64,000 bases of DNA from Tridacna crocea (lineage: Eukaryota; Mollusca; Bivalvia; Cardiida; Cardiidae): the NCBI GenBank assembly GCA_943736015.1, contig OX031058.1, forward strand, positions 14,409,001-14,473,000, in the 5' to 3' direction. Numbering within the stretch: the stretch's first letter is position 1; each line of letters begins with the position of its first letter. The notes beneath the pieces are model-generated. The model did not search any database, had not been told where the DNA came from, and was given only the letters and a program-made list of their open reading frames with translations. This document shows positions 395-62,945 of the stretch, one piece after another. The translations under genes were made by a program, and so were the position numbers.

Positions 395-500
395 TTTCTT
401 AAATATCAAAGACAAATCTCATCATTTTTGTCACATGTACTTTGTCATCTGATGGTCCTTTCAATTTGGACACATCTAAAATTTGCCGGCTAATGAAGTT
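395..500. mobile_element. PalA fragment, one half only
   Basis: It keeps the flank between palindrome and terminus (caaagacaaatctcatc, then tttcaatttggacacatc). The palindrome is missing, and it abuts the next PalA copy. Confidence 0.45.
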
Positions 501-699
501 AACTCTTTACCACGACTTTGAACAACCCTGAGAAAGAAGCCTTTTGAAAACAATGTGGGAAAAGGAGAAAATGCTGGTAACCAGCATTTTCTCCTTTTCC
601 CACAATGTTTCTACCCTTTTGAAACCAAATTTCAATTTTACATCTGCAAGTGGTTTAATTTGAATAAGTCTACAATTTTGTCGTTTGGTAAAGAGTTAA
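499..699. mobile_element. PalA element, complete
   Basis: TTAA lies at both ends (499-502 and 696-699). The central palindrome around 550-605 is intact, with arms reading gtgggaaaaggagaaaatgc and its complement. At 201 bp it is shorter than the usual 228 because of flank deletions. Confidence 0.85.
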
Positions 700-1028
700 A
701 CATACGAAAGAATGTGAAAGATTTTAGATGAACAAGAAATTTCTTATCACATGCAGTTTCTACATTGCCACATTTCTTGTTTGGCTGTTTTTGAAGAAAC
801 ATCCAAGTATTGAAATAGCCCTAGCATCATGGTCTGTGCCTGCCAAAACTTTGACATTTTGCTACACCTGCATTATTACTGAAGATATTTACTTCAGACT
901 TAAACAAGTGAGGGAACCCAAACAATAGACTCTTGGGGAACCTAAAAATCTGAGGCAGGGTCATCAAATATTTTTGATACAGTAATGCCAATTTTGCTAC
1001 TAATAATTTTCACTGAAAATCAAACACT

Positions 1029-1257
1029 TTAACCCATTACCACACAATCCCGACTTTTGACGACCCCGAGAAAGAAGCCTTTAGAAAACATAGTGGGAAA
1101 AGGAGAAAATGCTGATAACCAGCATTTTCTCCTTTTTCCACAATGTTTTGTACCCTTCACAAAACAAATTTCAAATTTTCAGTCACTTTTATTTTGTCCT
1201 CTGCAAATGCTTTGGATTTGGACAAGCTTAAAATATTGTCGTTTGGTAATGAGTTAA
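1029..1257. mobile_element. PalA element, complete
   Basis: TTAA lies at 1029-1032 and 1254-1257. It is a full-length 229-bp copy with the palindrome at about 1090-1145. Confidence 0.88.
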
Positions 1258-1396
1258 GTAGAGTGATGGCACCGTCATGCTATGCTCTTCTTTCTTCACA
1301 AAATTGTCTGCTGCAAGATGAAAAATATGTTGGCAGAAGGCAATCTGTTTGTCTCTGATCTCATCATGAAGTATCAGGATCAAAACGGGGGCCATT

Positions 1397-1618
1397 TTAA
1401 CCTTTTACCACACATTCCGTACTTCTGGCGACCCTGAGAAAGAAGCCTTCTGAAAACACTGTGGGAAAAGGAGAAAATGCCGGTAACCAGCATTTTCTCC
1501 TTGTTCACGTTTTCTTCCCATCTTCTAACAATTTCAATTCTTTAATCATATTTATTTTGTTGCCTGCAAATGCTTTCAATTTGGACTAGTCTAAAATTGT
1601 GTCATCTAGTTAAGAGTT
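1397..1618. mobile_element. PalA element, right end eroded
   Basis: The left TTAA is present. The right arm of the palindrome is shortened (ttctccttgttcacg), and the right terminus reads gttaagagttt, a damaged version of the usual end. Confidence 0.75.
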
Positions 1619-1631
1619 TGGGGGAAAAAAA

Positions 1632-1671
1632 TCATCCTTTACCACAAAATCCTGAGTTTAAACAACCTTAA
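1632..1671. mobile_element. PalA terminal fragment
   Basis: This is a short piece matching one PalA terminus (cctttaccacaaaatcctga). It directly abuts the next complete copy. Confidence 0.4.
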
Positions 1672-1898
1672 CCCTTAACCAAACAACAAAATTTTAGACT
1701 GGTCAAAATTGTAAGCACTTGCAGACGACAAAGTAAACGTAAATCAAAAAATGAAATTTGTTTAAAGCGGGATAAAAAAAACATTGTGGGAAAAGGAGAA
1801 AATGCTGGTTTCCAGCATTTTCTCCTTTTCCCACAATGTTTTCAGAACGCTTCAGTCTCAGGGTCGTAAAAACCAGGGATTGTTTGGGAAAGGGTTAA
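1668..1898. mobile_element. PalA element, complete
   Basis: TTAA lies at both ends (1668-1671 and 1895-1898). It has the full palindrome and is in the opposite orientation to the copy at 1029. Confidence 0.87.
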
Positions 1899-1904
1899 GG
1901 AAGA

Positions 1905-2107
1905 AGGCTTTGAAAACATAGTGGGAAAAGGAGAAAATGCTGGGTATCAGAGAAAACAAAATGCTGGGTAGCAGTATTTTCTCCATTTCCAACAGTGTTT
2001 TCTGCCCTTTCTGAGACAACTTTTTCATGTTGAGCTACATTTAATGTGATGCCTACAAAGGCTTTCAATTTGGACAAGTCCAAAATTTTGTTGTTTGGTA
2101 AAGAGTT
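1905..2107. mobile_element. PalA element, 5' eroded
   Basis: It begins just after the TTAA of the previous copy, without the first 30 bp or so, and ends in ttggtaaagagttga. A 24-bp near-duplication interrupts the palindrome (two atgctgggta blocks). Confidence 0.7.
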
Positions 2108-2182
2108 GAGGAAAGACAGGAAGATAGAACAATGATTCATTTTGCATTAGTTGATAACGATATACATACAGACACTTATCCC

Positions 2183-2430
2183 TTAACTCTTGACAAAATG
2201 ACAAAATTTTAGACTGGTCCAAATTGAAAGCATTTGCAGGTGACAAAAGTGCCTGAAAATTTGAAATTTGTTTTGCCTGAAAATTTGAAATTTGTTTTGG
2301 GAAGGGAAGAAAACATTTTGGGGAAAGGAGAAAATGTTGGTTACCAACATTTTTTCCATTTCCCAGAATGTTTTCATAAGGCCTCTTACTCAGGGCCGTT
2401 AAAAGTTAGGAACGTATGGTAAAGAGTTAA
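2183..2430. mobile_element. PalA element, complete, covarying palindrome
   Basis: TTAA lies at both ends. The palindrome centre reads gttggttaccaac instead of gctggttaccagc, so the same pair is changed in both arms. A short internal duplication (cctgaaaatttgaaatttg, twice) is also present. Confidence 0.85.
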
Positions 2431-2520
2431 CTCTTGACTCAACAATAAAATGTTTGACAAGATCAAAATGAAAGCATTTGTAGACAATGAATTTGGAAGG
2501 AAGACTAGGTTTTTAGAAAG
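2427..2520. mobile_element. PalA fragment sharing TTAA with its neighbour
   Basis: It begins at the TTAA that ends the copy at 2183 (ttaactcttgactcaacaat), keeps the gaaagcatttg flank, then stops before the palindrome. Confidence 0.55.
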
Positions 2521-2529
2521 ATAATTTAG

Positions 2530-2743
2530 TTAACTCCTTGGCTGCTAAGCAACAGTCATAGATTTATTGCAGAAAGTGTAGATCAAGATCAGAATGCACA
2601 GAAAGTGCAATCTGATCTTGGATCTTCACTGTCCTATAAGACTATACTTTCTTTTGCAAAACATAACTTTGAAATGGCAATAACTTCGTTTTTACTATTG
2701 TAATGAAAACTTCATTTTAGTTATTTCCCAGGATAAGGGTTAA
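2530..2743. mobile_element. PalB element, complete
   Basis: TTAA lies at both ends (2530-2533 and 2740-2743). The left end contains ggctgctaagca and the right end ggataagggttaa. The central inverted repeat is built on gatcaagatcagaatgcac and its partner gtgcaatctgatcttggatc. Confidence 0.8.
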
Positions 2744-2752
2744 GTTATTAAG

Positions 2753-2885
2753 GTTATCAAAGTATTTTGGTTTACCCCTTTAGTTCCTTTTACAAGATTC
2801 ACTTTATTTGAAGAGATAGACAAAGATTAGACTAGTCAGAATGCACTGTTTGATCTCAGATCTACTCTGATGGACAATATTTGAA
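2753..2885. mobile_element. PalB remnant, degenerate
   Basis: It keeps weak versions of the PalB palindrome (agactagtcagaatgcac, then tgatctcagatctac). No clear ends remain. Confidence 0.4.
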
Positions 2886-2934
2886 CTATACTGACAAAAG
2901 CAGCCTTTGTACTGATCTCAATATTTCACCAAAT

Positions 2935-3132
2935 ATTTCCATGTTTTGACAACTCTTGAGAGAGAAAGATTTAGGAAACAATTGTGAGAAAGGAGGAAAT
3001 ACTTGTAACCAGCAATTTCTTCTTTTTCTCCAATGTTTTTTAGCTCCACAAAGACAAATTTGATCATTTTGGGTCACATTTGTCATCTGAAAATACTTTT
3101 CTCTATGCTAAGTTCAAGATTTTGTCATTTAA
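2935..3132. mobile_element. PalA element, diverged
   Basis: It follows the PalA order (cttgagagagaaagat, a damaged palindrome with cttgtaaccagcaa, then gtcatctgaaaat). It ends at the TTAA of the next copy. Confidence 0.6.
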
Positions 3133-3357
3133 ACCATTACCAAATGACAATATTTTAGACTGGTCCAAATTGAATGCATTTGCAGACAACAAAATAGAAG
3201 TGACTGAGGATTTGAAATTTGTTTTGTGAAGGGTAGAAAACATTGTGGGAATAGGAGAAAATGCTGGTTACCAGCATTTTCTCCTTTTCCCACAATGTTT
3301 TCTAAAGGCTTCTTTCTAAGGGGCGTCAAAAGCAGGGATTGTGTGGTAATGGGTTAA
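3129..3357. mobile_element. PalA element, complete
   Basis: TTAA lies at 3129-3132 and 3354-3357. It has full length and an intact palindrome. Confidence 0.87.
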
Positions 3358-3476
3358 TAAAGGTTTGAACACTGACAGAGTATTCACGTGTTTATAATTA
3401 TAGTGAGTTGTCTAATGGGAGAAGGATGTAGAAGATAACACATGCTAATGCAGTAAGGACAGCTGTAACAGGAACT

Positions 3477-3705
3477 TTAACTCATTACCAAATGACAAAA
3501 TTTTAGGCTTGTACAAATCGAAAGCATTTGCAGGCGACAAAATAAAAGTGACTGAAAATTTGAAATTTGTTTTGTGAAGGGTAGAAAACATTGCGGGAAA
3601 AGGAGAAAATGCTGGTTACCAGCATTTTCTCCTTTTCCCACAATGTTTTCTAAAGGCTTCCTTCTCAGGGTCGTCAAAAGTAGGGATTGTTTGGTAAAGG
3701 GTTAA
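3477..3705. mobile_element. PalA element, complete
   Basis: TTAA lies at 3477-3480 and 3702-3705. It has the same orientation as the copy at 3129 and is highly similar to it. Confidence 0.88.
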
Positions 3706-3759
3706 TACATGTACATGTGAAAGTGAAAGTGTCCCAAGATACTTATGCATAGACAGGAT

Positions 3760-3898
3760 CTCAACCCTAGACCAAACAACAAAAATCTAAGGCTTTTCCA
3801 GATTCAAAGCATTTGCAGAAGACAAATAAGATGTTACTTAGTTTAGACGAGATTTGTTTTCAAAATGGTTGTGGGATATTCTAGGCACAGAATGCTGG
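3760..3898. mobile_element. PalA fragment
   Basis: It has the left flank (accaaacaacaaaaatct, caaagcatttgcag), then a collapsed core ending in aatgctggttt. The next copy starts within it. Confidence 0.5.
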
Positions 3899-4127
3899 TT
3901 TACTCTTTACCACACAAGGAAATTTTAGACTGGTCCAAGTTGAAAGCATTTGCAGACGACAAAATAAATGTGACTGAAAAATTGAGATTTGATTTTGGAA
4001 GAGTAGAAAACATTGTGGGAACAGGAGAAAATGCTGGTAACCAGCATTTTCTCCTTTTCCCACCATGTTTTCAAAAGGCTTCTTTCTCAGGGTCGTCAAA
4101 AGTAGGGATTGTGTGGTAATGGGTTAA
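3899..4127. mobile_element. PalA element, complete; source of tandem duplication
   Basis: It runs from tttactctttaccacac to the TTAA at 4124-4127. The part from about 3968 onward is repeated from 4431. Confidence 0.83.
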
Positions 4128-4142
4128 CAGGATTTTCTACTT

Positions 4143-5452: not shown

Positions 5453-5680
5453 TTAACCCTTTACCAAACGATAAGATTTTAGACTGGTGCAAATTAAAGC
5501 ACTTGCAGACGACAAGGTAAACATAACTCAAAAATTGAAATTTGTTTACGGCAGGGTAGAAAACATTGTGGGAAAAGGAGAAAATGCTGGTAACCAGCAT
5601 TTTCTCTTTTTCCCACAATGTTTTCAACAAGCTTTTATCTCAGGGTCGTGAAAACCAGGGATTGTTTGGGAAAGGGTTAA
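5453..5680. mobile_element. PalA element, complete
   Basis: TTAA lies at 5453-5456 and 5677-5680. The right TTAA is also the left TTAA of the next copy. Confidence 0.88.
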
Positions 5681-5910
5681 CTCTTTACCACACAATCCCG
5701 ACTTTTAATGACACCGTGAAAGAGGCCTTGTGAAAACATTGTGGGAAAAGGAAAAAATGCTGACAACCAGCATTCTCTCCTATTACCACAATGTTTTCAA
5801 CCCTTCCCAAACCAAATTTCAATTATTTAGTCATGTTTATGTTGCCATCAGAATTTTGTTTCAGTTGAGACCAGTCTATAATTTTGTTGTTTGGTAGAGA
5901 GTAAGGGAGT
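5677..5910. mobile_element. PalA element, shares TTAA with previous copy
   Basis: It starts ttaactctttaccacacaat at the shared TTAA. It has a mutated palindrome (ctgacaaccagcattctctc) and ends at ttggtagagagtaag. Confidence 0.83.
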
Positions 5911-6304: not shown

Positions 6305-6535
6305 TTAATTCTTTACCAAGAGCCAAAACTACAAACTGGTCCAAATTGAAAGCATTTGCCAACGACAAAACAAATGTGACTGAAAAAAAATGAAATTTTT
6401 GGGGAGAAGGATAGAAAACATTGTGGGAAAAGGAGAAAATGCTGGTTACCAGCATTTTCTCCTTTTCCCGAAATGTTTTCAAAAGGCTTTTTTCTCAGAG
6501 TTGTTAAAAGTTTGAATTGTGTGGTTAAGGGTTAA
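6305..6535. mobile_element. PalA element, complete
   Basis: TTAA lies at 6305-6308 and 6532-6535, with an intact palindrome core. Confidence 0.85.
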
Positions 6536-13490: not shown

Positions 13491-13697
13491 TTAATCCTTT
13501 ACCACAAAACCTGGAGAAGAAGGTTTTTAGAAACATTGTTGGAAAAGGAGAAAACGCTAGTAATCAGAATGCAAGTTCCCACAATATTTTCCACCCGTCA
13601 AAAACAAACTTCAATTTTTATGACACGTTTATTTTGCCGTCTGCAAATTATTTCAATTTGCATACGTGAATGATTACGTCGTTTGGTAACTAGTTAA
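13491..13697. mobile_element. PalA element, complete but diverged core
   Basis: TTAA lies at 13491-13494 and 13694-13697. The second arm of the palindrome is largely deleted. Confidence 0.75.
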
Positions 13698-17309: not shown

Positions 17310-17476
17310 CACTGACCTCTTGCGGACAGAGTAGACCAAGATTAGACGGCACAAAAGGTACAGTTTGATCCGTGAAGAAGATATGTTTCTCCCCAAAATA
17401 CCTCAGAAAAAGCAAAATTTACTTTTACTGTCAGCTTGAAAGTTTCATGTTAGTTATTTAGCAGAATAAGGATTAA
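17310..17476 (+). mobile_element. PalB element, 5' truncated, shares TTAA with PalA
   Basis: It has a damaged palindrome, then the PalB right end gttatttagcagaataag, finishing in TTAA at 17473-17476 where PalA starts. Confidence 0.75.
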
Positions 17477-17701
17477 CTCATTACCAAACGACAATATTTT
17501 AGGCTTGTCCAAATTGAAAGCATTTGCAGACGACGGAATAGAAATGACTGAAAATTTGAAATTTGTTTTGTGAAGGGTAGAAAACATGATGGGAAAAGGA
17601 GAAAATGCTGGTTACCAGCATTTTCTCCTTTTCCCACAATGTTTTCTAAAGGCTTCTTTCTCAGGGGCGTCAAAAGTAGGGATTGTGTGGTAATGGGTTA
17701 A
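17473..17701. mobile_element. PalA element, complete
   Basis: TTAA lies at 17473-17476 (shared with PalB) and 17698-17701. The palindrome is intact except for catgatggg in one arm. Confidence 0.88.
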
Positions 17702-18804: not shown

Positions 18805-19066
18805 TTGTGACCCATCATGCAAAAAGGAGTTAGCTAGGATTTCTGTACATCAAGTATATGAAAACAGGTCAACGATTGTGCAGGTCAGTTTAAGTTAAAA
18901 ATTCAAAAAAGATTGTATAACATGGAACATTGACCACTTTTCATACAGAAAATGTCATTAAAGCCAAAAGTGTCAACCCTGGTCAGCCTGCGCAATTTGC
19001 GCAGTCTGACCAGGGTTGACAATTTTCGCTGTTCCAAGAAAGTCCCTTTTTGCCCGATGGGCCACA
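18805..19066 (+). mobile_element. PalC MITE
   Basis: It is bounded by 22-bp inverted repeats (tgtgacccatcatgcaaaaa; complement at the right). Inside at 18970-19021 is a near-perfect 52-bp palindrome built on gtcaaccctggtcagcctgc. A second, opposite copy is at 34800. Confidence 0.75.
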
Positions 19067-27060: not shown

Positions 27061-27071
27061 CACTAAGTGAT

Positions 27072-27240
27072 ATATAGAGTTTATTTCATCAGCTTGTGGT
27101 TAATACGTGGAAATATTTGCCGGAGAAGGGAAGGGTGTGCGAAAATAACGAGTGCCGTAAGGCACGAGTTATTTTCGCGGAATTTTCCCTTTTGAGGCAA
27201 ATATTTCCCCCTATCAACCACAAGCTGATGAAATAAATTA
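27072..27240. mobile_element. Foldback element
   Basis: The outer arms are tttatttcatcagcttgtgg and their complement at 27215-27240. At the centre is a tight hairpin (gaaaataacgagtgccgtaa then ggcacgagttattttcg). The whole 165-bp unit can fold on itself. Confidence 0.75.
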
Positions 27241-27679
27241 TATATTTCCTCTGATTATTTCGTCAACGAATGCCACTTTTAAAACTATTTTTAGCAAAGT
27301 AGAACAAAACAAGCATTCTGGTAGTATTGCATCTGATAGTAAAGCAATACTGAGTCCCCTACCAGCCGTATATATATTGCTGGCAGGTATAGTTTGTGAA
27401 TTTCTGTGGAGGAGAAAGAACGTATTTGATCAATTTTCAGAAAATTTATAACTTAAGCATAATGTCTGTCTTTGTATGCAATGCTTTAACGAAATCCAGA
27501 TATATGAGCATTTTTCTCGTTAAAGTAAGTTCATTGAAGAAATTATACAAAGACAATATGTGTTTGTGAAACACAATTGTCCTTGTAAAAGCAAATTTTC
27601 AGAAATATGACTTTGAACTTGTGAGATGACCTTGACCTTACCATCGACAGGTGTGTATCAATGAGAGATACTAGCTTAA

Positions 27680-31384: not shown

Positions 31385-31596
31385 TTAACCCTTAGGCTGC
31401 TAAGCACGACTCTATGAACTTTTGCAGATAGTTTAGATCAAGATCAAACTGCAGAGAACGTGCAGTCTGATCTTTGATCCCACTCTATCCGATAAGAAAA
31501 TATCTATCTCCAAAATTACCGTTGAAAGAGCAAATTTTTGGTTTTATTTTTTTTTTAATGTTTCGTTTTCATTTACTTATCAGAATAAGAGTTTAA
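31385..31596 (+). mobile_element. PalB element, complete
   Basis: TTAA lies at 31385-31388 and 31593-31596. It is the best-preserved PalB copy: left end cccttaggctgctaagcacg, central palindrome, right end ttatcagaataagagtttaa. Its right TTAA is the left TTAA of PalA. Confidence 0.85.
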
Positions 31597-31820
31597 CCCA
31601 TTACCACACAATCTCTACCTCTGACGCCCCTGAGAAAGAAGCCTTTAGAAAACATTGTGGGAAAAGGAGAAAATGCTGGTAAGCAGCATTTTCTCCTTTT
31701 GCCACAATGATTTCTACCCTTCACAAAACGCATTTCTAATTTCAGTCACTTTTATTTTGTCGTCTGCAAATGCTTTCAATTTGGACAAACCTAAAATTTT
31801 GTCGTTTGGTAATGAGTTAA
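31593..31820. mobile_element. PalA element, complete
   Basis: TTAA lies at 31593-31596 (shared with PalB) and 31817-31820. Confidence 0.88.
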
Positions 31821-32067: not shown

Positions 32068-32369
32068 TCAACCCTTACGCTGATGAACGCGATCCTATGA
32101 ACTTTTGCAGAGAGTTAAGATTAAGATCAGACTGAACAGAACCTGCATTCTGATCTTGGATCAGGAATGTCCCATAAGGAGATATTTTTACTCCACACTG
32201 AATAATTTTTTAAACAGCAACGTTTGGGTTTTAACTGTCGGTTTCAATGTTACATTATCGGCGTTTTACTTCAAAAACCTCGTAACTACAGCTTGAAACA
32301 AGCTGTAGTTATGATGTTTTTGAAGTAAAGCGACGATATCATTAAATTAATTAGCAAGTTACGGGTTAA
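32068..32369 (+). mobile_element. PalB element carrying a nested foldback
   Basis: Left end tcaacccttacgctgatgaa; palindrome gattaagatcagactgaac and partner; right end gcaagttacgggttaa. An extra 86-bp hairpin lies at 32255-32340. Confidence 0.75.
32255..32340. mobile_element. Small foldback nested in PalB
   Basis: The arms gttttacttcaaaaac and ctacagcttg pair with caagctgtag and gtttttgaagtaaag around a 3-nt turn. Other PalB copies lack it. Confidence 0.75.
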
Positions 32370-32861: not shown

Positions 32862-33090
32862 TTAACCCATTACCACACAATCCCTACTTTTGACGCCCCT
32901 GAGAAAGAAGCCTTTAGAAAACACTGTAGGATAAGGAGAAAATGCTGGTAACCAGCATTTTCTCCTTTTCCCACAGTGTTTTCTACCCTTCCCAGAACAA
33001 ATTTTAATTTTTCAGTCACTTTTATTTTGTCGTCTGCAAATGCTTTCAATTTGAACCAGTCTAAAATTTTGTCATGTGGTAAAGAGTTAA
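32862..33090. mobile_element. PalA element, complete, covarying palindrome
   Basis: TTAA lies at 32862-32865 and 33087-33090. Both arms carry the T-to-C change (cactgt / acagtg). Confidence 0.88.
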
Positions 33091-35408: not shown

Positions 35409-36613
35409 TCAAACCACGATGCCTTTACTACTTTTCCTATCATCAGGCCGTGGAATCATTTCTAACGTTTCATCTCTGTCCTTCTCATATTTAGTTGGCT
35501 CAGGCTTTTCTGACTTTCCTCTCTTTCTTACTCTTTTAAAGAAAATGAAGGCTGCAACGCCAGACAGAGCACAGACAATAGCAGTGACACTCAATACTAT
35601 CGATAAAACGGGCGTGCCAGCCCTTGCCAACGGTTCTGCCCTAGCTGATGTGGAATTAGTAGTACCCATTGTCTTGTCATACTGTTGTAGGCCTATGCAT
35701 GTAGGAGTGGCACATTTTCCATCAATACAGACAATGTCAGAAATATTTTCCTTTCTATATCCTGATTGGCAAGTCCAGTTTAATTTTTTTCCGTGTTTTA
35801 GAAATCCCCCGTCATTCAAATCCATTACTTTGACTCCCTCTGAATTTTCCAGGATTTTACAATCGCAGAAACATCCTGTATCAGGTTCATCCCAGGCTCC
35901 ATCACTGCAAACTGGAGTTCCGGATCCAACTTTGGTAACCGATATATTACTAGATGGTGACATACAGATATATGAAAGTATGCTTCCATCAGGGGATAAA
36001 TCTGCGTCATAAATACAAGATGAATTTGATCCAAAGTGAGAACCACAAGAGGAAGACAGGCATACTGGTTTAGAGTCCCATTTTCCATCAGCTCTGCATT
36101 GCACCTCCGGGTGACCACTTAGGACATATCCATCATTGCATGTTACTTTTATTTTATTTCCATACACATTTGATCCACCAGCATCCATCACCTGAGTCGT
36201 TTGTCCATTGGGTACACTTCCAAACTCACCACAGTTTACTATCTCACAGATTGGTAGATCTGATCTCCAACTTCCATCAGACATACACACCAATGGAGAG
36301 TCACCTTTCATATTGAAACCCTCATTACATGCAAACACGATGGAACTCCCAGCAACGTAACTTGGTTTGTTTATAATTTCTCCATTTTCTATACTACTGA
36401 TCTCCTTACAAACCGGAAGACACTTAAAATCACCCACCCAAGCACCATGGATACACCTGTAAAATGCATCACCAATCCCGCCATATCCAGCGTTACATTT
36501 GATCATTAGAACTGTCCCATTCTGTAGCACAGATCCAGTGGCATTCGATGATGAATTTGGAACCTGCGGGTTTTGTGGCATACAACCACCTCGTGCATAT
36601 AGAACACAATAGC
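35409..36613 (-). CDS. CCP protein, coding exon 2
   Basis: It encodes residues 15 (second base of the codon) to 415, stop TGA at 35411-35409. The open frame extends upstream past the acceptor into a PalA copy, but those extra residues are intronic: the acceptor tttttgtgttacAG is strong and its phase matches exon 1. Confidence 0.82.
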
Positions 36614-39600
36614 CTGTAACACAAAAATGAATAATTAACTCATTACCAAACGACAATATTTTAGGCTTGTCCAAATCGAAAGCATTTGCAGACGACAAAA
36701 TAAAAGTGACTGAAAATTTGAAATTTGTTTTGTGAATGGTGGAAAACGTTGTGGGAAAAGGAGAAAATTCTGGTTACCAGCATTTTCTCCTTTTCCCACA
36801 ATGTTTTCTTAAGGCTTCTTTCTCAGGGGCGTCAAAAGTAGGGAATGTGTGGTAATGAGTTAAGTCTTTTTTCGTAACCAAATTATAGGCAGAACCGTTC
36901 ATTCAATTCTAAATTGCTCTCTACTATCAGTTGAAAGACTCTCTAAAATTTTCTGAATTAAAAAAAGGAAACAATTTCTCTTTGGCATCCCTTCTTTTTT
37001 TCAATAACCTTCTGAATAAAAGTGCTCAACAGGGACTGCTGGCAAGGAAAGAGATACATTGCAATTCTTCCTCAGTTTACCCATAACCAAGTAATCCCAG
37101 GTTTTTAAGGTAACAGACTTTCAAGAGGAAGAAATCTTTTGAAAACAATGTGGAAAAAGAAGAAAATGCTGCTTAATAGAGACTCTGACGACATTCGCGA
37201 CAGTTGCCATTATCACGCTTCGTATTATTATCACGCTCACCTTTTTCTTGATCTTGCCACACTTGTCAATGTCTGCAGAACTGATAAACCAAGAATTAAA
37301 ATAGGTCGCTTCATGTTAGCAAAACAAAGAAAAAAAGTATTTGAATCAAGCCAAATAATTATATGCGAGGCAAGAATCTGAAATTACTCTTTCAAAAGAT
37401 CGGACTGAAAGTCGAAGTGAAACATTTAACTACGTCCCCTAACAAAGGAAATATTATCACAGATGCTATTAGCACTCTATCTGGCTACAGGCCTTTGAAG
37501 CTCTATTGGTCTATCACGGAATTCTAGAATTTTCCTTGATCGTTTATTTGACACCTATAGTACATTGGTGCATTGTCTGTATAATTATTACGAAACAAAC
37601 TCAAATCTTCTACAGAAACACTGTTTCTATAAATAGCACATCTGTGACTCGCTCTATATCATTGCTCGGCGACATCAGTCGCAGTGCATAATTATATTCA
37701 TGGTTTTTCTGCCTGTTTATGGATTAAATCCGCACAGTTATCTCCCTTCGATTTTTGCCGCGTTATTTTTGAAATATTTTCATTACCCGGATGGTATTTG
37801 AAAAAAAAAAAAAAAAAACAGAATTTGCCGATTCTTTGTATACCTGATATTGTCTGCATATGTCATAATACTTTATTCCTGCCTCATAATTATTGTAGTA
37901 TTCAGTAAATAAAGAATATGTTTACGATATGAGCGAATCCCTTCAGTCAATAGTTTAAGCGCGTCTTTTCAACAGTATTTCCCGATAAAGTATGTTTTTC
38001 TGCTGGGAGCAGATAATAAAACGAGCAATCACTGTTTACTGAGTCACTTTTCGTATCTCTATCTCTGCTCTTTCATTTGGTGCTTAAACACTTCTGTAAG
38101 TGGAATTATTTAATTTTTTTCCGTCTTTTTCCTGCATTGTATGACTGTCATAGACAAAACCCACCACTTTACAAGAAAATAATGCACTCTTCCACAATTA
38201 AAGACAATTTGACCTATAGAACAGAGCTCTGTTTTAAAATGTCTTTGCGGCTCAAAATAATAAATCCATGTTTCATTATTTGTGAACAGTTAGCATATTC
38301 TGCGTTTGTCATAATTTTTGTACTTTATAACCCATTACCAAACGACAATATTATAGACTGGTCCAAATTTAAAGCATTTGCAGACGACAAAGTAAAAGTA
38401 ACTGAAAATTTGAAATTTGTTTGTGAAGGGTAGAAAACATTGTGGGAAAAGGAGAAAATGCTGGTTACCAGCATTTTCTCCTTTTCCCACAATGTTTTCA
38501 AAAAGCTTCTTTCTCAGGAACGTCAAAAGTAGGGATTGTGTGGTAATGGGTGAATTTTGGTCATTTTCACATGAGTATCCTTTTGCTCATCTGTCGACAG
38601 GTGCGGGACCCACGGAGCGCATATCTTACGCAGTTCTAACTCCTTAGTCAAAATCTTATGAAATGATCCCATGATATACCAACTCTCTGCGATTTCTTTC
38701 AATGTAACCCTGGAATCCTGCTTATCTAAATCTGCCACAGCAACATTTTCTTAAGAAGCTACAGTTTTTGGTTGACCAGGACGTGGAGGGGGGTGGGCAT
38801 CTTCTAGGTAAGTTCTACCATCTTTAATTCTTTTTATACGGCCATCTGAAACCGAAACCCCATGTATCTGACATATTAAACTAAATATAATTCATGAAGA
38901 TGAAAGAATCAGACTAATGCAACTTTTGTCATAGGTTCTGATTTGAAGCTTTTCTTTTGTGTTCATTGTACATTCAGCAACATAGCCAGTGTATATGACT
39001 GCACCAACATAAACTTTCAATAACTTTTGAAAGAATGAACCTATCAAAACCAAATTTCGCGCCCATATTCAGAACGACTTGCTTGTTAAAATACCATTAT
39101 TTCCGTGCGATACACATGGCTTATACACGCCAAAAAGGAGCATTCGAACATCTGCGCATAAACAAGAAGTGTGAATTTCAAACTTTAAATCGCTACTTTT
39201 CCCTTACTAAATGTCCGATTTTTTTAAATCAATATGGTTCAAGCTTTTGATGATAACCATAAATGAGGAATTTCTAGCGTAAAAAAAGAAATGTAAATTT
39301 TCAACTTTGAATGGCTTCTTCTTTTAATAATGACTTATCACAGACTTTTTTTAAAAAAACAACAGGGTTCGAGCTAGTGATGATACAACAGGCTTTACAA
39401 GCTTCGCTAAAATCTGACCACAAATGCAGACCCGCAAATGCAGACCTTTTCTCGATAATAAGTGAAAAAAGACTACGAGGCAGACGGACAGACAGGCAAA
39501 AGGACGTACGGAGAGACGACTGAACACAACGACATGACATGCGGTCCCACTATATACCACAAGCACGCCCTTAACATAACAAAGACGCACAAAGACATAC

Positions 39601-51161: not shown

Positions 51162-51390
51162 TTAACCCTTTCCCAAACAATCCCTGGTTTTTACGGGTCT
51201 TGAATAGTAGCCTTTTGAAAACATTGTGGAAAAAAAAGAAAATGCTGGTAACCAGCATTTTCTCCTTTTCCCACAATGTTTACTACCCAATCATAGACAG
51301 AAATCTTCTTTTTAGCAAGAGTTGAATTGTCGTCTGCAAATGCTTTCAATTTTGTCTAGTCCAAAAGCTTGTCGTTTGGGAAAGGGTTAA
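51162..51390. mobile_element. PalA element, complete
   Basis: TTAA lies at 51162-51165 and 51387-51390. The first arm is damaged (gtggaaaaaaaagaaaatgc). Confidence 0.87.
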
Positions 51391-52633: not shown

Positions 52634-52959
52634 TGTCGTAGGTTGTTCATAAAAACTTGTGAAATCAAATGCAGCCACCAAAGTTTCTTTGAAATCTTTG
52701 TATGCTGCTTCAAGTTAAAGCAGAATTAGGGTAAAAGCCTTGTCCTGTTTTAAATTGAGGCAACATTATGTACAACAAAAGCCATATAATATGGGATGAA
52801 CAGGCATTAGACAATATAACATAATATCCCATCACTTCCTGTGGCAGGGTGTAAAGAACTAGTGACTCTTAAGAGCCTGAGCTGCTCTACTTGCAGTGTA
52901 TTTTTAACTGTCAAAGTTAAAAAAAAAAACTAAAAACAAATGAAATTTTCATCATGTAA

Positions 52960-53291
52960 ACAAGAAATGGAAATTTTCAACTTGAAATGGCTACTTTTCC
53001 GATATTGTTTGTTTCATTTTTTTTTATTTTTTTCAAAACCAATAGGGTTAAAGCTATTGATAAAACAAACTTTGCAAGTACACAGAAATCTGACAGATAA
53101 TGCATTCTTTATCAAGTAAACAAGAAATAGCTATTTTCAAATTAAAGTGGCTACTTTTCCCTTACTTTTTTTTTTTTCAAAATCAATCAGCTTGAAGCTG
53201 TTGATGAGATAAAGAAATTGTGCAAGTTTCACGAAAATCCAACCAAAAATGCTGACCAAATCATATAAATACGAAATGGAAATTTTAAACT
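52960..53291 (+). mobile_element. HA-like tandem fragment
   Basis: Units of about 150 bp starting taaacaagaaatgg (52967, 53118, 53266) with ggctacttttcc inside. Continues after the PalA insertion at 53528. Confidence 0.6.
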
Positions 53292-53527
53292 TTAACTCAT
53301 TACCAAACAACAATATTTAATCTATAGACTTGTCCAAATTGAAAGCATTTGCAGAAAACAGAATAAAAGTGACTGAAAATTTAAAATTTGTTTTGTGAAG
53401 GGTAGAAAACATTGTGGGAAAAATGAGAAAATGCTGGTAACCAGCATTTTCTCCTTTTCCCACAATGTTTTCTAAAGACTTCTTTTTCAGGGGCATCAAA
53501 AGTAGGGATTATGTGGTAATGGGTTAA
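53292..53527. mobile_element. PalA element, complete, with empty-site paralogue
   Basis: TTAA lies at 53292-53295 and 53524-53527. The host repeat resumes at once (ctggctacttttccc); the neighbouring unit at about 53138 has the uninterrupted version. Confidence 0.87.
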
Positions 53528-57021: not shown

Positions 57022-58500
57022 GGTGGCCCTTCAGATATTGGGACGAAAATTTTACAAAAATGCAAAAAAATCATCCTTTTACTCCCAAAGCCTATTAATT
57101 TGCGTTCATAAAATCCCAGTAGTCAAAAACCATCCGACAGCACGACAAATTAGAGATTTACTACGGCCCAGGTTGACACCAGCGGGAGACACGTTCTGTT
57201 TTTAGATGATCAATTCGCTCATTTACATACAGGAATACGCAGATGAAGTTTCAGAAAAAGCGTCCGAAGAAGACATTATGGAAAACAATTATTACATGTT
57301 TGTTATGTAATGGAATTTAAGCGTTATTAGTCACGTGCCAGTCACTTGACATTCCAAAAATAATTAATTGATTTTTGGCGGGAAATCTAAAAATAACTTA
57401 AGAGGCTACGTAGCCTTTTAAGGGAACACCATCAATTTCTTTTTTTTTGTAATTTTATGAGTCTCAATTATTGATGATTTGTATTATTTTTCCATATTAA
57501 TTTCAGCGATATATATATTTTTTTAATTTGGTGAGATGTAAAAATTCGAAATACCTACCTTTAAAGGTTGGTATTTAGAATTTTCATATCTCATCAAATT
57601 GAAAAATTTATATATCACTGAAATTTATATGGAAACAATACAAATCATCAATGATTAAGATTAATAAAATAACAAAAATAATTTTTTGGTGGTGTTTCCT
57701 TGAAGGTGGCCCTTCAGAATTTAAGACGAAAATTTTACAAAAATACAAATATATCATCCTTATACTCCCAAAGCCTTATAATCGTCATTCATAAAACCCC
57801 AGTAGTCGAAATTCATCCGATAATACGAGAAATTAGAGATTTACTACGGCCAAGGTCGAACATCGACGGGAAACACGTTCTATTCTCACATGAACAACTC
57901 ACTCATTTACACACTGGAAATACACAGGCGAAGCTTCAAACATAGCGTCCGAAGGAGATAAATTATGAAAAATAATTACATGTTTGATATGTAATGGAAT
58001 TTAACCGTCATTAGTCACGTGCCAGTCACTTAACATTCCCACAATGCATTTTTTATTTTTGGCGCCAAATCTAAAAATAGCCTAAGAGGCTACGTAGCCT
58101 TTTAAGGGAATAACATCATAAACATTTTTTGGTAATTTTATGATTCTTAATTATTGATGATTTGTATTGCTTTTTCATATAAATTTCAGTGATATATATA
58201 ATTTTTTTATTTGGTGTGATGTGAAATTCTAAGTACCCACCTTTAAAAGGCTACATAGCCTCTTAAGGTATTTTTAGATTTCGCGCCAAAAATAAATAAA
58301 GCATTGTGGGAATGTCAAATGACTGGCACGTGACTAATAACGCTTGAATTCCATTACGTAACAAACATGTAATAATTATTATGTCTATTTGGACGCTTTG
58401 TTTGAAACTTCGTCTGTGTATTCCTGTATGTAAATTAGAGAATTTATAAATCATCTAAAAATAGAACGTGTCTCCCGTTGGTGTCAACCTCACAGTGTAG
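57022..58500. repeat. Palindromic mosaic of repeat E7
   Basis: Block A (gtggcccttcag...) occurs at 57022-57420 and 57702-58105 directly and at 58247-58500 inverted. Block B (attgatgatttgtatt...) occurs at 57425-57560, inverted at 57563-57700, and again at 58110-58245. The palindrome aggctacgtagcct marks the A/B joins (57405, 58087). The two 60-80-codon frames in block A are similar but not obviously conserved as protein. Confidence 0.75.
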
Positions 58501-59345
58501 GACCGGAAGTGTACAGTGTTTGAGATTGTATGTCACTTGGGAATCTGTACAGTGGTGAAATGTCACTTGGTCGTTGAAAATTGCTATCACACGGTAAGTC
58601 AAGCTGTTGATTTTTCATTTTATTTTGATAGCTATTACAAAACCTTTATATCAAGTTGTTTGTTTGTTAATTATAAAACGTATCAGGAACACCAATGTGC
58701 TATGAAAAGCTTTCCTAGGGATACGGGATGCCTTGATCATGTAACCATACTAAAATACGGATGATTTCGCCTCAAAAGAACGAGGTATTTTGTTTAATTA
58801 ATCATCCTTAAAAGCTTTTTTGCTGAACGGAAAATATATAGACAGTTTCTTTATTCACTTTTTGTTGAAAACATGTAAAGAATTGTAACAAAATCGACTG
58901 CAATCCTCCTAATCGTTCGTTTAAAGTGGCATGTCAACAAAGGGAATTTGTACTGTCACTTGATAAGCTGTTGTACAGTCACTTGAGATCTGTAATATTT
59001 CATTCTGTACAGTGACTTGAAGAGCATGTCTTGTTTTACAAAGGATGAAAAGGGAAATTCGACAAAGAAAGTTGTCTATTTGAAGTGATATGAGACTCCG
59101 ACCTGTTTGACCAACTTTTAAGTAGACTGATTTGACAGATGCTCCTTGAAATGGTGGTTTTACTTGCTATAATACTCGAATACTTTACAAAAAACTGAAA
59201 ATCCCAGTAAGATTACTGCACCAAGGAAACAGCAGCAAGTTTTAAGTTCTATAACTGACTACTACCGTCTCGTACCCTGCTGCATAAAAAGCGCTTTGAT
59301 ATAGATCGCAAACTTTTTAAAGCTTTGTTTATACTTGAGAACACC
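58501..59345. other. Stretch without recognised gene
   Basis: cacttgggaatctgtacagt-type words (tgtcacttg, gtacagt) recur at 58532, 58558, 58965 and 58975, a weak degenerate repeat. No gene recognised. Confidence 0.35.
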
Positions 59346-59350
59346 TAACT

Positions 59351-59640
59351 GATTGATTGTCTGGTGTTTAGCGCCGTTTTCAACATTATTTCAGTTATAT
59401 CGCGGCGGCCAGTGCAGCTATCCATGCTTTCCTGGAGTTTCATTTACCAGTACTCGCACAATTTTCTTTCCAAGCCAATGGCTGCTTTCTCACATAATCA
59501 TCATCGAAACAATGGTCAACAGTGGGAGAGGAATGAATCCTGTCGCAATGACTATCATCAGTCCTCGGAAAGAAATTGGCCTAGCCCGGGATCGAGACCA
59601 CGACCCCCTGTTCTCAAGTCCTGCACCAAGGTAGAGGTCT
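59351..59640 (-). mobile_element. tRNA-derived SINE (S1), long copy
   Basis: Tail at the left (gattgattgtctggtgttta); head on the minus strand with gtgcaggacttgagaac and a B-box-like stretch. The overlapping frames at 59353-59705 are SINE sequence. Confidence 0.7.
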
Positions 59641-59702
59641 ATACTGCCTTTCTGTTTCGTCCGTTTAATCTGTATTGCAGCGAAATGCAACTAAATATAA
59701 GT

Positions 59703-59900
59703 TAGTTTGTTGGTTGTATTGGGTTTTAACGCCACTTTAACAGCGAAGTTCATATGATGGCGGTCGGTGACGCACATGTGTTTCCTGGCTTTCCAAAGCC
59801 ACCGACCGGGTGGGAAAATCCGCCCAAACGGGATATCGAATTCACAACCATCAAGTCATGAGTCCGACACGCTGACCATTGAGTCACCCGGGCAGGCCTA
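59703..59900 (-). mobile_element. tRNA-derived SINE (S2), complete
   Basis: Tail ttggttgtattgggttttaa; head on the minus strand gggtgactcaatggtcagcg with a B-box-like ttgtgaattcgatatc. Confidence 0.68.
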
Positions 59901-60504
59901 AATATAAGTAAATACAAGTAAATAAAATGACCGAATGTAGATTATTAAACCTTTCATCACCTTAAAAGCTTGTAGAAGTCGTTTACGACATGTAAATCTG
60001 GTAAATTTTTCGCGCGTGGCGGCCATTTTCGGAGTGTTTCCGGGAATGTAAACAACTCAAGTAACAGATAAAATGCACGGTTTTCTCTTATGTTCAGCAT
60101 TTAAATTGAAAATATGTGTTTTTCAAACGAAGGGTTATTAAATACACAAGCAACTTGTATGTTTGAATCCTAGTTTTGCGCTCTATTTGCAAAATTATGA
60201 GAGTTCAAACTTGCGCACAAAATCTGTGCGGAACTTTCAACTGGTTTTGTCTTTATCGCCTCCGTACCCAGAGGCGACCAGTAAAAAAGTAACATCGCGT
60301 TTGGGAACAGTTATTTGTACTATGTCAGTCCTTTACTTTCAAGACCCTTATGTTGTGTAAAAATGCCTCTGACTTACATATTCAGAGCCGGTCCACATAT
60401 GCGGAGCCCTTCTTTAATTTTATCATTTTTTGCGTTATTGCTATTCACTTCTTTACCAGCAGTGAATATAACATTTCAAGACATAAATTCATGCTTTTAG
60501 GACA
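59901..60504. other. Stretch without recognised gene
   Basis: Short frames at 60163-60541. None has a motif, and the last ones run into the E6 repeat. Confidence 0.35.
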
Positions 60505-60845
60505 GCAAGACTCTCTTTTTTTGCCAGTTAAATGGCAATAATAGACTAAATATTGGTCCATGACGTATTATTTCGGCTACTGGCGACCCACGCCACAAAT
60601 GATTCAGACAACATCGTACATTTGTTACAACTTTACATACTGTAGAAAACACGTTGAAAGACCAGATCGTTGTATGACATTCTCCTTTTTTGAAATTTCA
60701 AAGACATAAAAAACACATGATTACAAATAATGTCAAGCTTACTTGTTTTTTGAATCGACATTTTCAGAAACGGAAGACCAACATTTTTTTCTGATCGGAG
60801 CCATTGGCTCTGAACATGAAGTTTCCTACCCGTGAGACCACAAAC
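60505..60845 (+). repeat. E6 dispersed repeat, longest copy
   Basis: actctctttttttgccagtt, acgtattatttcggctac, cacaaatgattcagacaaca, gaaacggaagaccaaca, gagccattggctctga. Related to 43605-43905 and 41120-41215. Confidence 0.7.
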
Positions 60846-61400
60846 AAGGTTTTTTCTAAGATTTAGCCTTGTGAATTACTTTGTTGTTCCCTCAATACTC
60901 AGTTTCATGATTCTCTTTACTATCATCAAGACAGATATTCCGACATATCTTTAACAGTCCCAGACCGAAAATGTGGCCTCAGAAAGAGTGCAAAAAAGGC
61001 TTTTTCTAGGATTTAGTCCTATGACCTACTTTTTGACTTGGCGTGACCAAATTTCAAACTTTTCCAAGATATTATCAAGACAAACATCCTGACCAAGTTT
61101 CAAGTGTACCGGGCTGATAAAAGAGGTATACATATGGAGTGCACACAAGCTTCTTTAAATATTTAGCCCACAATTTCGAACTTGTCCGCGATGTAAAATT
61201 TTGGCCAGTATAAGTTATTGATCATAAATTTTACACAAATGAAATATATTGATCAATACCTAACTTACAGTTTGTCCTACTTTCTAATTGACTGACAGCT
61301 ACGGATAGGTAGCCATACAAGAGCGACAGAAAGCTCCGTTCCCAACGCCTCTTTGATTTTAGGGTGAACGAACGCGCGTTTTGAGTCGTAATCCGTCACT
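60846..61400. other. Stretch with weak HA-like text
   Basis: aggttttttctaagatttag and aggctttttctaggatttag recur 160 bp apart, a two-unit tandem repeat. No gene. Confidence 0.4.
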
Positions 61401-61407
61401 TTTATTA

Positions 61408-62641
61408 GCTCTACTGGCTGAAAGCCAGCAGAGCTTATGTCATGGCGTCCGTCCGTCTGTCTTTCCGTCCGTTAGTCTTTTTCTTGTTTACGCGATAAAG
61501 CCTGCATTTGATGTCTGATTTTTGTGAAACTTGCACAGTTTGTTTATCTCATCAATAGCTTCAACCCCATTGATTTTGAGAAAAATCCAACAAACAGTAT
61601 GGGAAAAGTAGCCATTTCAAGTTAAAAATTTCCAATTCTTGTTTACGCGATAAAGTCTTCATTTGTTGTCAGATTTACGTGAAACTTGCAAACTTTCTTG
61701 TTTACGCGATAAAGTCTTCATTTGTGGTCAGATTTTCGAGAAACTTGCACAGTTTGTTTATCTTATCAGTAGCTTCAACCCTATTGATTTTGAGAAAAAA
61801 AAAATCCAACAAACAGTGTGGGTAAAGTAGCCATTTCAAGTTGAACATTTCAAATTATTGTTTACGCGATAAAGTCTTCATTTGTTGGCAGATTTTCATG
61901 AAACTAGCACAGTTTGTTTATCTTATCAGTAGCTTCAACCCTATTGATTTTGAAAAAAATCAAACAAACAGTATGGGAAAAGTAGCCATTTCAAGTTAAA
62001 AATTTCAAATTCTTGTTTACGCGATAAAATGTGCATTTGTAATCAGATTTTTGTGAAACTTGCAGAGTTTGTTTGTCTCGTCAATAGCTTCAATCCGATC
62101 GATTTCGAAAAAAATCAAACAAACAGTATGGGATAAGTAGCCATTTCAAGTTGAAAATTTTTTATTCTTGTTTACGCGATAAAGTCTGCATTTCTAGTCA
62201 AATTTTCACACAGTTTGTTTATCTTATCAGTAGCCCCAACCCTATTGTTCCCTATTGATTTTGAAAAAAATCAATAAACAATATCAAAATAGTAGCCAAT
62301 TAAAGTTCAAAGTTTCAAATTCTTGTATATGTGATTAGGTCTGCAGTTTTGGTTGAATTTTCACAAAACTTGCACTGTTGCTTTGTATTTTAAACAGCTT
62401 GAACCGGCTATTGATTAAAAAAAAATCTGACAATCAGTTTTGGAAATGTAACATTCAAAGTTGAAAATTTCCAATTCTTGTTTAGGCAATGAAGTTCACA
62501 GTGTTGATCCAATTCTTTTGAAGATTCATCAAGGAATTGAATATCTAGTTTGTCTTTTTGCATCATGAATTCATAATGTATGCTATCATCAAAGCAAACT
62601 CTCCCAGTAGAGCATATTCAGGCCCTTCAGGGCCTTCTAGT
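61408..62641 (-). mobile_element. HA element, third type, reversed
   Basis: Left hairpin ctactggctgaaagccagca, then gtccgtccgtctgtctttcc, then about seven units of roughly 155 bp starting ttgtttacgcgataaag (61484, 61640, 61697, 61858, 62014, 62168). Right terminal hairpin ggcccttcagggcc. Confidence 0.72.
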
Positions 62642-62675
62642 TTTGTCCTTGAACTCGTTTCGGGATAATTGTCTG

Positions 62676-62945
62676 TGGTCATGCTCTTTTAACCCATTAC
62701 CACTCAATCCCTACTTTTGACGCCCCTGAGAAAGAAGCCTTTTGAAAACACTGTGGGAAAAGGAGAAAATGCTGGTAACCAGCATTTTCTACTTTTCCCA
62801 CAGTGTTTTCTACCACAGTGTTTTCTACCATTTCCAGATTAAATTTCTCTTTTTCAGTCACCTTTATTTTTTCGTCTGCAAATGCTTTCAATTTGGACCA
62901 GTCTAAAATTTTCTTGTGTGGTAATGAGTTAAGCGCATGACCACA
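62676..62945. repeat. 13-bp inverted repeat flanking a PalA copy
   Basis: tctgtggtcatgc to the left and gcatgaccacaga to the right enclose PalA symmetrically. Confidence 0.7.
62689..62932. mobile_element. PalA element, complete, covarying palindrome
   Basis: TTAA lies at 62689-62692 and 62929-62932. Both arms carry T-to-C. A short duplication of ccacagtgttttctacca lies at 62800-62830. Confidence 0.87.

Follow-up and report, generated by a model that had tools for sequence, protein, structure and literature searches.

A long-standing question is why some MITEs explode in number when their transposase-bearing kin remain rare. The window considered here, the whole 64,000-base stretch of Tridacna crocea DNA that was analyzed, raises it through PalA, an abundant element with a strong palindrome in its middle. 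We put at roughly 0.6 the probability that PalA belongs to a piggyBac-type MITE group in which the central palindrome acts in cis to determine spread, with both its sequence and its symmetry conserved among source elements.

PalA and its copies

PalA is a non-coding, TTAA-bounded element with a 229-bp consensus. Its central palindrome occupies element positions 108–174 (67 bp) and is made of 33 consecutive pairs and one unpaired base; the flanks outside it, 107 and 55 bp long, are non-symmetric. Pairing in the consensus ends after 33 pairs from the center, so PalA lacks the whole-element symmetry by which fold-back transposable elements are recognized. Terminal inverted repeats are present, short and imperfect (consensus ends TTAACTCTTTACCAAAC and TTAACCCTTTACCACAC), and length is uniform, the 230-bp length bin holding 69 of 111 bounded elements. 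PalA thus has the features of a MITE: it is short, non-coding, of uniform length, present in high copy number, and terminated by inverted repeats. The first-pass annotation had described complete copies of about 228 bp with loosely inverted ends and a 57-bp palindrome whose 28-bp arms meet at one unpaired base. The size class, the ends, and the unpaired base stand, the element length becomes 229 bp, and the palindrome proves to have been underestimated (67 bp, with 33-bp arms). With these corrections, the observation of PalA is confirmed.

A profile search of the window found 55 non-overlapping pieces of PalA, 26 of them spanning both ends, that together cover 9,598 of the 64,000 bases (15.0%); about 45 pieces and one-seventh of the DNA had been estimated at first. 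There are 42 inverted-repeat pairs in the window, and 21 of the 25 longest are the PalA palindrome, with arms of 31–36 bp and, in 17 of the 21, a 1-base spacer. The TTAA reported on both sides of the element is found at both ends of 14 of the 26 full window copies, at one end of 8, and at neither end of 4, the background TTAA frequency being 0.76% per position. For the 126 full copies in the pooled loci, from which eight loci (L001, L022, L023, L025–L028, and L050) were removed as duplicates or overlaps, the corresponding counts are 67, 42, and 17.

Copies of 229 bp with TTAA at both ends lie at 1029–1257 (full-length; minus strand; profile search), 3129–3357 (plus; arms 3234–3268 and 3270–3304), 3477–3705 (plus; arms 3582–3616 and 3618–3652), 17473–17701 (plus; arms 17578–17612 and 17614–17648), 32862–33090 (minus; arms 32915–32949 and 32951–32985), 36635–36863 (plus), and 51162–51390 (minus). 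TTAA likewise bounds the copies at 1668–1898 (plus; 31-bp arms 100% complementary at 1778–1842), 5453–5680 (plus; arms 5556–5591 and 5593–5628), 6305–6535 (plus; arms 6414–6446 and 6448–6480), and 31593–31820 (minus; arms 31646–31678 and 31684–31716), as well as two shortened copies of 201 bp at 499–699 (minus; profile search) and 207 bp at 13491–13697 (minus). The palindrome of the 201-bp copy, located at 548–610 by inverted-repeat search, has 31-bp arms that are 97% complementary. TTAA is mutated at both ends of the copy at 38327–38554 (plus), which has perfect 33-bp arms at 38433–38499, and a 236-bp copy at 53292–53527 (plus) sits inside another repeat. A 244-bp copy at 62689–62932 (minus; arms 62744–62776 and 62778–62810) carries a paired change at distance 26 from the palindrome center, the same distance at which a T-A pair has become C-G in the copy at 32862–33090. 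Two copies, 5453–5680 and 5677–5905, adjoin in opposite orientation, and the copy at 36635–36863 overlaps the upstream end of a Sushi-repeat open stretch (35409–36773, minus strand).

When the same 1.05-Gb genome is sampled at 30 arbitrary 5-kb stretches, PalA coverage is 18.6 ± 2.4%, which extrapolates to about 1.1 million pieces genome-wide. A pattern search placed the palindrome's inner 31 bp, intact, at 191,599 sites, or about one every 5.5 kb. The reversed 31-bp pattern had 0 genome matches and a reversed-sequence control gave 0 PalA matches in 20 regions, which excludes chance as the source. A satellite array is excluded by the spacing of 100 listed core places, by the element geometry, and by the empty sites described below. 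The exact core was found in 0 stretches of viral contigs, and a literature text search did not find the two longest palindrome pieces in print among the matches listed.

Transposase-bearing relatives in the genome

PalA is very probably a piggyBac-type MITE with a partner in this genome. Mobilization of that type, at first suggested by the TTAA ends, now draws support from empty sites, transposase matches, and a shared end. Empty sites with a single TTAA occur in repeats paralogous to those that host the copies at window 53292–53527 and at L002:1442–1670; the repeat around the former has uninterrupted one-TTAA copies near window 62277–62362 (minus strand) and in L030. The piggyBac transposase family PF13843 has 118 matches in the genome, of which the best 22 are without an internal stop.

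The closest partner is a 6.4-kb element on contig C7 (about 18507265–18513640) that has an uninterrupted transposase frame (E 4.4e-89 to PF13843) and TTAACTCTTTCCCACACA at both ends. Its left end is identical to the right end of PalA at 34 of 40 positions, with agreement at 11 of the 13 terminal bases and at 23 of the 27 that follow (20,000 shuffles reached 18 at most), and it thereby provides the transposase-encoding relative with the same ends that the first-pass annotation had advised seeking. The end motif recurs about every 35 bp in this element. The other end has only the terminal repeat in common with PalA as judged by eye, and the PalA matches in the element consist of three nested copies and the 38-bp match at the end, nothing else. 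Judging from the shared end sequence, we infer that the C7 element could be what moves PalA.

A related 7.2-kb piggyBac element, near-identical copies of which are present on several contigs, also has one end like the PalA right end, agreeing with it at 12 of 13 and then at 18 of 27 bases (shuffle fraction 0.00015). Its transposase matches the solved piggyBat 9c0f (E 9e-40) and 6x67 (E 4e-36), a chain named Transposase that we take to be piggyBac. The left end of PalA beyond the terminal inverted repeat matches neither end of this element. As closest partner, the 7.2-kb element is superseded by the C7 element, which was found via the 7.2-kb end. A 2.77-kb piggyBac family (ends TTAACCCTTTATATAC) and elements in L020 and L011 were rejected as partners, having little beyond the terminal TTAACCC[A/T]TT in common with PalA; one L011 end agrees with PalA at 13 of 30 positions (shuffle fraction 0.010). 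Kolobok elements also use TTAA; they were rejected as well, the partner transposases matching PF13843 and nothing else above the curated cut-off.

The palindrome is absent from the ends of both the C7 and the 7.2-kb elements, and none of its 8-mers recurs in the terminal 300 bp of the latter. The known partners therefore do not need the palindrome.

Conservation within and between families

Within PalA, identity is 92.9% in the palindrome and 80.1% in the inner flanks, a difference of 12.8 points (bootstrap 95%, 10.8–14.9) that is much the same once CpG columns are removed. Core identity is above flank identity in 88 of 91 full copies, which bears out the earlier view of the core as the best-kept part. 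Neither of the two outcomes that had been named as refuting the first-pass description, a core no better kept than its flanks and copies lacking TTAA duplications, is borne out. The core is never missing among the 126 copies that reach both ends (one keeps about half), and no split pair of left and right PalA parts without a core was found. Symmetry is not strict, as one-arm variants without the partner change are common to groups of 4–10 close copies.

The closest cluster (n = 58) has 0.80 private changes per column in the core and 0.80 in the flank, and 0.23 and 0.42 shared changes, respectively, a contrast that falls short of significance by itself (Fisher p = 0.08). Wider sets give this contrast odds ratios of 3.3 (n = 84; p = 5e-6) and 3.5 (n = 144; p = 5e-6), values that saturated flank columns inflate. 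When a tree is built from all columns, the contrast is weaker (p = 0.006) because the core has fewer terminal changes per column as well (8.26 versus 13.02); a flank-only tree gives p = 2e-8 but is biased toward that result. The PalA-only tests set aside 60 of the 204 core-containing copies, those with short or dissimilar flanks. Equal private changes alongside fewer shared ones in the core make it look as though the gap between core and flank arose in source lineages and not after copies had landed.

Two further families, PalB and PalC, have flanks that differ from those of PalA and carry its palindrome in almost the same place; the families are represented by 6 and 2 full copies read, respectively. 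Compared with PalA, four base pairs are changed on both arms of the PalB core and two on both arms of the PalC core. All six PalB copies have paired changes at distances 3, 8, 13, and 20. One PalC copy has them at distances 3 and 8; in the other, the change at distance 3 is likewise paired, and a small right-arm deletion covers distance 8. When cores are assigned genome-wide by core type alone, the arms match in 50 of 51 PalB-type cores among the matches listed (of 15,848 forward matches) and in 50 of 50 PalC-type cores among those listed (of 10,125).

Among elements from a set of 111 that pass an end and motif filter, the distance between the palindrome center and one end is 140.5 bp in 26 of 47 PalA and 5 of 5 PalB elements, and that between the center and the other end is 88.5 bp in 40 of 47 PalA and 3 of 5 PalB elements. 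The inner left flanks of PalA and PalB are unrelated (z = 0.05), and the inner right flanks are weakly similar (z = 2.8). PalC has its right end in common with PalB and a left end like neither PalA nor PalB; halves may therefore have been exchanged between families. Mirror symmetry persists between families even though little of their remaining DNA is related. This arm-by-arm symmetry, like the genome-wide scale, goes beyond what the first-pass annotation had seen, and its judgment that so strong a palindrome in the middle of an element is out of the ordinary stands, given the absence of the palindrome from the partner's ends and its presence in families with different flanks.

Explanations for the palindrome

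Symmetry could be kept passively, with no function needed, if the arms copy each other by hairpin template switching (quasi-palindrome correction) or conversion. At an arbitrary site, distance 7, complementary T-A to C-G doubles occur at 31 genome places and non-complementary doubles with the same left change at 17, where independence predicts from the per-arm rates about 4.6 and 8.2, respectively; complementary doubles are therefore in approximately three-fold excess, uneven ages allowed for. Rearranged derivatives among 182 cores (one with two right halves; two clear and one weak with two left halves) mark the palindrome as a recombination or template-switch point. Copying between arms preserves symmetry, however, not sequence, yet the sequence is preserved too: PalA and PalB differ at 4 of the 33 pairs, against left flanks that are unrelated. 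Moreover, private core changes in the closest cluster are paired in 1 of 52 cells, which rules out arm-to-arm correction as the sole explanation, and we regard passive upkeep as improbable. The palindrome might instead act as RNA, a read-through 33-bp hairpin giving small RNAs or shielding element transcripts and so selecting for pairing. The perfect copy at 38433–38499 folds at −51.7 kcal/mol (z = −15 versus shuffles), and paired changes fit any stem. One-arm changes that leave a G-U pair number 146 in sense RNA versus 152 in antisense RNA, however, and there is therefore no strand preference; the equal private rates of core and flank in the closest cluster also speak against selection on landed copies. 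We regard an RNA role as improbable too.

The mixed ends of PalC and the weak likeness of the PalA and PalB right inner flanks could be accommodated by common descent alone, with every family derived from one symmetric founder, flanks changing quickly through chance and recombination, and the core a passive marker. We disfavor this account, as neutral descent would predict neither the better keeping of the core within PalA nor the pairing of between-family changes on both arms.

In the reading that we prefer, with the palindrome acting in cis on spread, PalA would be a non-autonomous TTAA miniature element whose ends are recognized by piggyBac transposases encoded elsewhere in the genome, and these would move it seamlessly between TTAA sites. 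The 67-bp palindrome would be a separate cis-acting module, found in several TTAA MITE families at much the same distance from each end, and source elements that keep its sequence and two-fold symmetry would leave more descendants. We lean toward the palindrome being functional for spread; that it is bound by a protein dimer is a more tentative suggestion. We infer both that it raises mobility and what might bind it. Its likeliest role would be as a docking site for a dimeric protein, such as a piggyBac transposase with its zinc-binding C-terminal domains (CRDs) in a pair or, alternatively, a host DNA-binding dimer used in excision or targeting. Palindromes of piggyBac and piggyBat are bound by two CRDs of the transposase dimer, according to the portion of the report drawn on here (PMC11707139).

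A bolder and rather doubtful proposal is that the 67-bp odd palindrome could be a transferable booster module for TTAA MITEs, one that sits at fixed end distances, moves between families by flank exchange, is neither needed nor carried by transposase-bearing elements, evolves by paired changes, and drove one element to about one-fifth of a 1-Gb genome. If true, such a palindrome would be a new kind of cis-acting DNA-transposon part, unlike terminal repeats and subterminal transposase sites. The natural variants (PalA, PalB, PalC, and the one-arm and paired mutants) make the role of the internal sequence directly testable by transposition assay.

The PalA group has in common with piggyBac and piggyBat the TTAA target, C-Y-C ends, and a PF13843 transposase. 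The palindromes of piggyBac (19 bp) and piggyBat (imperfect) are short and near the ends, whereas that of PalA is 67 bp and internal and, unlike theirs, is missing from the ends of its own transposase-bearing relatives. The closest precedent is the coral CMITE group of Acropora as described in the excerpted text of its report (PMC2872659). Those elements are also TTAA-bounded MITEs with piggyBac-like ends, their families have different ends and a common, better conserved internal region, and a piggyBac-like element has ends that match those of one family. CMITEs differ in being about 100 bp long with about 1,600 copies in A. millepora, compared with 229 bp and about 1.1 million pieces for PalA, and the excerpted text does not describe their internal region as a palindrome, which that of PalA is. 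Why the internal region is conserved above the ends was left open there (PMC2872659); PalA repeats the pattern with 191,599 intact 31-bp cores, a partner transposase in the same genome, and a symmetry built into the core.

Palindromic transposable elements of C. elegans and Anopheles, in the part of their description drawn on here (PMC3212995), resemble PalA in being non-coding and having long inverted symmetry, but they fold back entirely, whereas PalA is symmetric in its middle 67 bp only. A single MITE family is the commonest element in Sitophilus oryzae, as in the present genome; the excerpted account (PMC8576890) gives 10,486 hits and 1.3% of the genome for that family, compared with about 19% for PalA. 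With cores spaced so closely, the genome offers a natural experiment on how replication, RNA editing, and silencing face palindromes.

A TTAA-bounded family with a 67-bp central palindrome

An inverted-repeat scan of the window returned 42 pairs, and 21 of the longest 25 represent one palindrome with the common form GAAAACATTGTGGGAAAAGGAGAAAATGCTGGT-N-ACCAGCATTTTCTCCTTTTCCCACAATGTTTTC. This palindrome is the core of PalA, a family with a 229-bp consensus made up of a 107-bp left flank, the 67-bp palindrome (33 base pairs around a single centre base, T or A in most copies), and a 55-bp right flank, with ends TTAACTCTTTACCAAAC and TTAACCCTTTACCACAC. The first-pass annotation had put the length near 228 bp, which agrees with the consensus, and the palindrome at 57 bp; its central position stands, but its size was underestimated. 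The annotation had also counted about 45 pieces making up roughly one-seventh of the DNA, and a profile search is in keeping with this abundance, finding 55 non-overlapping pieces that cover 15.0% of the window, with 26 reaching both ends (27 when profile and cut-off are varied slightly; 16.0% coverage at a looser threshold). Copies from the window and from arbitrary stretches of the genome went into the profile.

The window lies at 14409001–14473000 on contig C3 of a genome that has 1.05 Gb in 31 contigs. PalA covers 18.6% (s.e.m. 2.4; range 0–49%) of 30 arbitrary 5-kb stretches, 10 of which had contributed to the profile; the mean of the remaining 20 is 18.3%. These 150 kb contain 162 pieces, 64 of them full-length; by extrapolation the genome would have about 1.13 million pieces, of which about 0.45 million would be full-length. 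Exact matches to the palindrome's central 31 bp number 191,599 in the genome, and those to the reversed control 0. For comparison, the commonest family of Sitophilus oryzae is a MITE that occupies 1.3% of the genome (PMC8576890), and a bivalve survey reports many MITEs and gives no further classification (PMC10294476).

TTAA is found at both ends of 14 of the 26 full window copies. An empty site with a single TTAA was identified for the copy at window 53292–53527, by comparison with host-repeat copies in the window and at locus L030, and for the copy at L002:1442–1670, by comparison within L002. Because PalA has TTAA at both ends, single-TTAA empty sites, and a non-coding sequence of uniform length, we assign it to the TTAA MITEs; in structure and partner it is of a known kind, a piggyBac MITE. 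The repeat hosting the copy at 53292–53527 has several copies, matched over about 86 bp (window ~61593–63441 and 52951–53009, and L030), and L030 carries several of these with zero PalA matches.

Two further observations were made in the window. Other long inverted repeats with arms of up to 88 nt, distinct from PalA, lie at 27069–27248, 57519–57606, 32256–32338, and 18962–19030. A 454-codon open stretch at 35409–36773 on the reverse strand encodes Sushi repeats (PF00084, E 1e-25), and its first codons fall within the PalA copy at 36635–36863, so that the exon either truly starts elsewhere or includes sequence supplied by PalA.

Transposase-bearing relatives

The genome contains 118 matches to the piggyBac transposase family PF13843, the best 22 of which have no stop within the match. 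Two related transposase-bearing elements, one of 7,203 bp and one of about 6.4 kb on contig C7, have PalA-like ends, and the transposases of both match PF13843. A transposase-encoding relative with PalA-like ends, proposed earlier as a check on piggyBac-type mobilisation, is found in the C7 element: its start (TTAACTCTTTCCCACACAATCCCGACTTTTTACGACCC) agrees with the PalA right end (TTAACCCTTTACCACACAATCCCTACTTTTGACGACCC) at 11 of 13 bases and then at 23 of the 27 that follow, where 20,000 shuffles gave 18 at best. Repeats of this end motif lie about 35 bp apart in the C7 element, an arrangement that would fit a transposase-binding array. Three PalA copies are nested near the right end of this element (~18512552–18513217).

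The 7.2-kb element starts with TTAACCCATTACCGTTCAATAACGCCTTTTGACGCCCC and ends, in reverse, with TTAACTCATTACCACTC, and its transposase matches a solved piggyBat chain. Over 7.17 kb, the C5 and C9 copies share 99.9% identity (the C9 copy is missing its right-hand TTAA), the C3 and C15 copies agree at 99.5–99.9% over about 4.1 kb, and the C10 copy is known from its first 300 bp only. This element has probably been active very recently. Near-identical copies are spread over several contigs (L049/L050, L025–L028), and the transposase frame is open for 486 aa; a 122-aa acidic frame upstream resembles a first exon, and a nested PalA lies between the two. A separate 2.77-kb piggyBac family with ends TTAACCCTTTATATAC looks recently active as well, with copies 98–99.9% identical (L013–L019, L023), several closely adjoining PalA copies.

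Paired changes across and within families

The palindrome is common to families with other flanks. PalB (six copies) has ends TTAACCCTTTACCCCATAAGGC and TTAACCCTTTACTCCATAGATA, is 229 bp long, and carries the palindrome at 108–174; relative to PalA, its left inner flank is unrelated (z = 0.05) and its right weakly similar (z = 2.8). PalC (two copies; TTAACCCTTTACCTGATATGCC) has the right end of PalB and a palindrome placed one base further in. Counting base pairs outward from the palindrome centre, all six PalB palindromes differ from PalA at distances 3, 8, 13, and 20 on both arms. Of the two PalC copies, one shows the paired changes at both 3 and 8; the second is paired at 3 and has a deletion in the right arm that spans distance 8. 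A diverged PalA-like copy, L058:3021–2796, likewise carries the 3 and 8 pairs.

With a PalC-type left arm fixed and two right-arm positions free, the genome gave 10,125 forward matches, with a matching right arm in 50 of the 50 listed; a PalB-type left arm with three free positions gave 15,848, with 50 of the 51 listed matching. The listed matches are the first in contig order, hence non-random, and were scored by core alone. Left arms with the distance-3 change alone are rare, at 336 forward and 362 reverse matches, and most of the 100 listed are unpaired. Among genome matches listed, PalB-type palindromes mostly have C or G as their centre base, and the PalA and PalC types A or T.

Below the family level, the arms are also coupled, though weakly. 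Double changes in 91 full copies comprise 29 complementary and 8 other cases against 13.4 doubles expected, an excess that comes mostly from shared lineages (e.g. distance 26) and from PalB and PalC copies. The 204 core-containing copies have 102 complementary versus 63 other doubles. Among 144 PalA copies, 35 complementary doubles compare with 25.3 expected when right arms are permuted within flank clusters (1 of 300 permutations as high). At distance 7, an arbitrary site, doubles occur genome-wide at 31 complementary and 17 non-complementary places; a change rate of about 0.9% in each arm, with T to C in 53 of 100 matches listed, would predict about 4.6 and 8.2. Of the double places among the 100 matches listed at distance 12, 4 are complementary and 2 are not. 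Copying from arm to arm may explain part of the complementary excess.

Core constraint and a possible role in spread

That the core is the best-kept part of PalA, as first proposed, is borne out by an identity comparison of 91 full copies with the consensus: the core averages 92.9%, the inner flanks 80.1%, and the 17-bp ends 86.7%, with core above flank in 88 of 91. In the closest cluster (n = 58), core and flank both have 0.80 private variants per column, and shared variants number 0.23 in core versus 0.42 in flank (p = 0.08). This contrast is strong in wider sets (odds ratios 3.3 for n = 84 and 3.5 for n = 144; p = 5e-6 each), where saturated flank columns inflate it. By parsimony on an all-column tree, inner branches carry 1.79 changes per column in core versus 3.86 in flank and terminal branches 8.26 versus 13.02, a smaller deficit (p = 0.006 for the inner/terminal contrast); a flank-only tree gives p = 2e-8 but puts core changes on tips by construction. 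The simplest reading is that constraint acts on the source elements from which new copies descend rather than through upkeep of landed ones. Among 126 copies reaching both ends, none is core-less and one retains about half of the core.

There is strong indirect evidence that piggyBac transposases of the same genome recognise the PalA ends. The central palindrome would aid spread of the element and be constrained in sequence, symmetry, and spacing, a proposal in which we have moderate confidence. A direct need of the partner transposase for the palindrome is disfavoured because the partner's own ends lack it; in the C7 and 7.2-kb elements, the palindrome is confined to nested PalA copies. By analogy, a protein dimer may dock on the PalA palindrome: CRD dimers are described on piggyBac and piggyBat palindromes (PMC11707139). 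The coral CMITEs (PMC2872659) offer the closest precedent for an internal region that is conserved. As far as the literature searched shows, the long palindromic internal module is new, as are its evolution by paired changes from family to family, its fixed position, and its genome share.

The palindrome is also a point of rearrangement, since derivatives exist with two right halves (L032:954–1130, bounded by TTAA) and with two left halves around the palindrome (L060:2016–2082 and L058:915–972, each together with its flanks).
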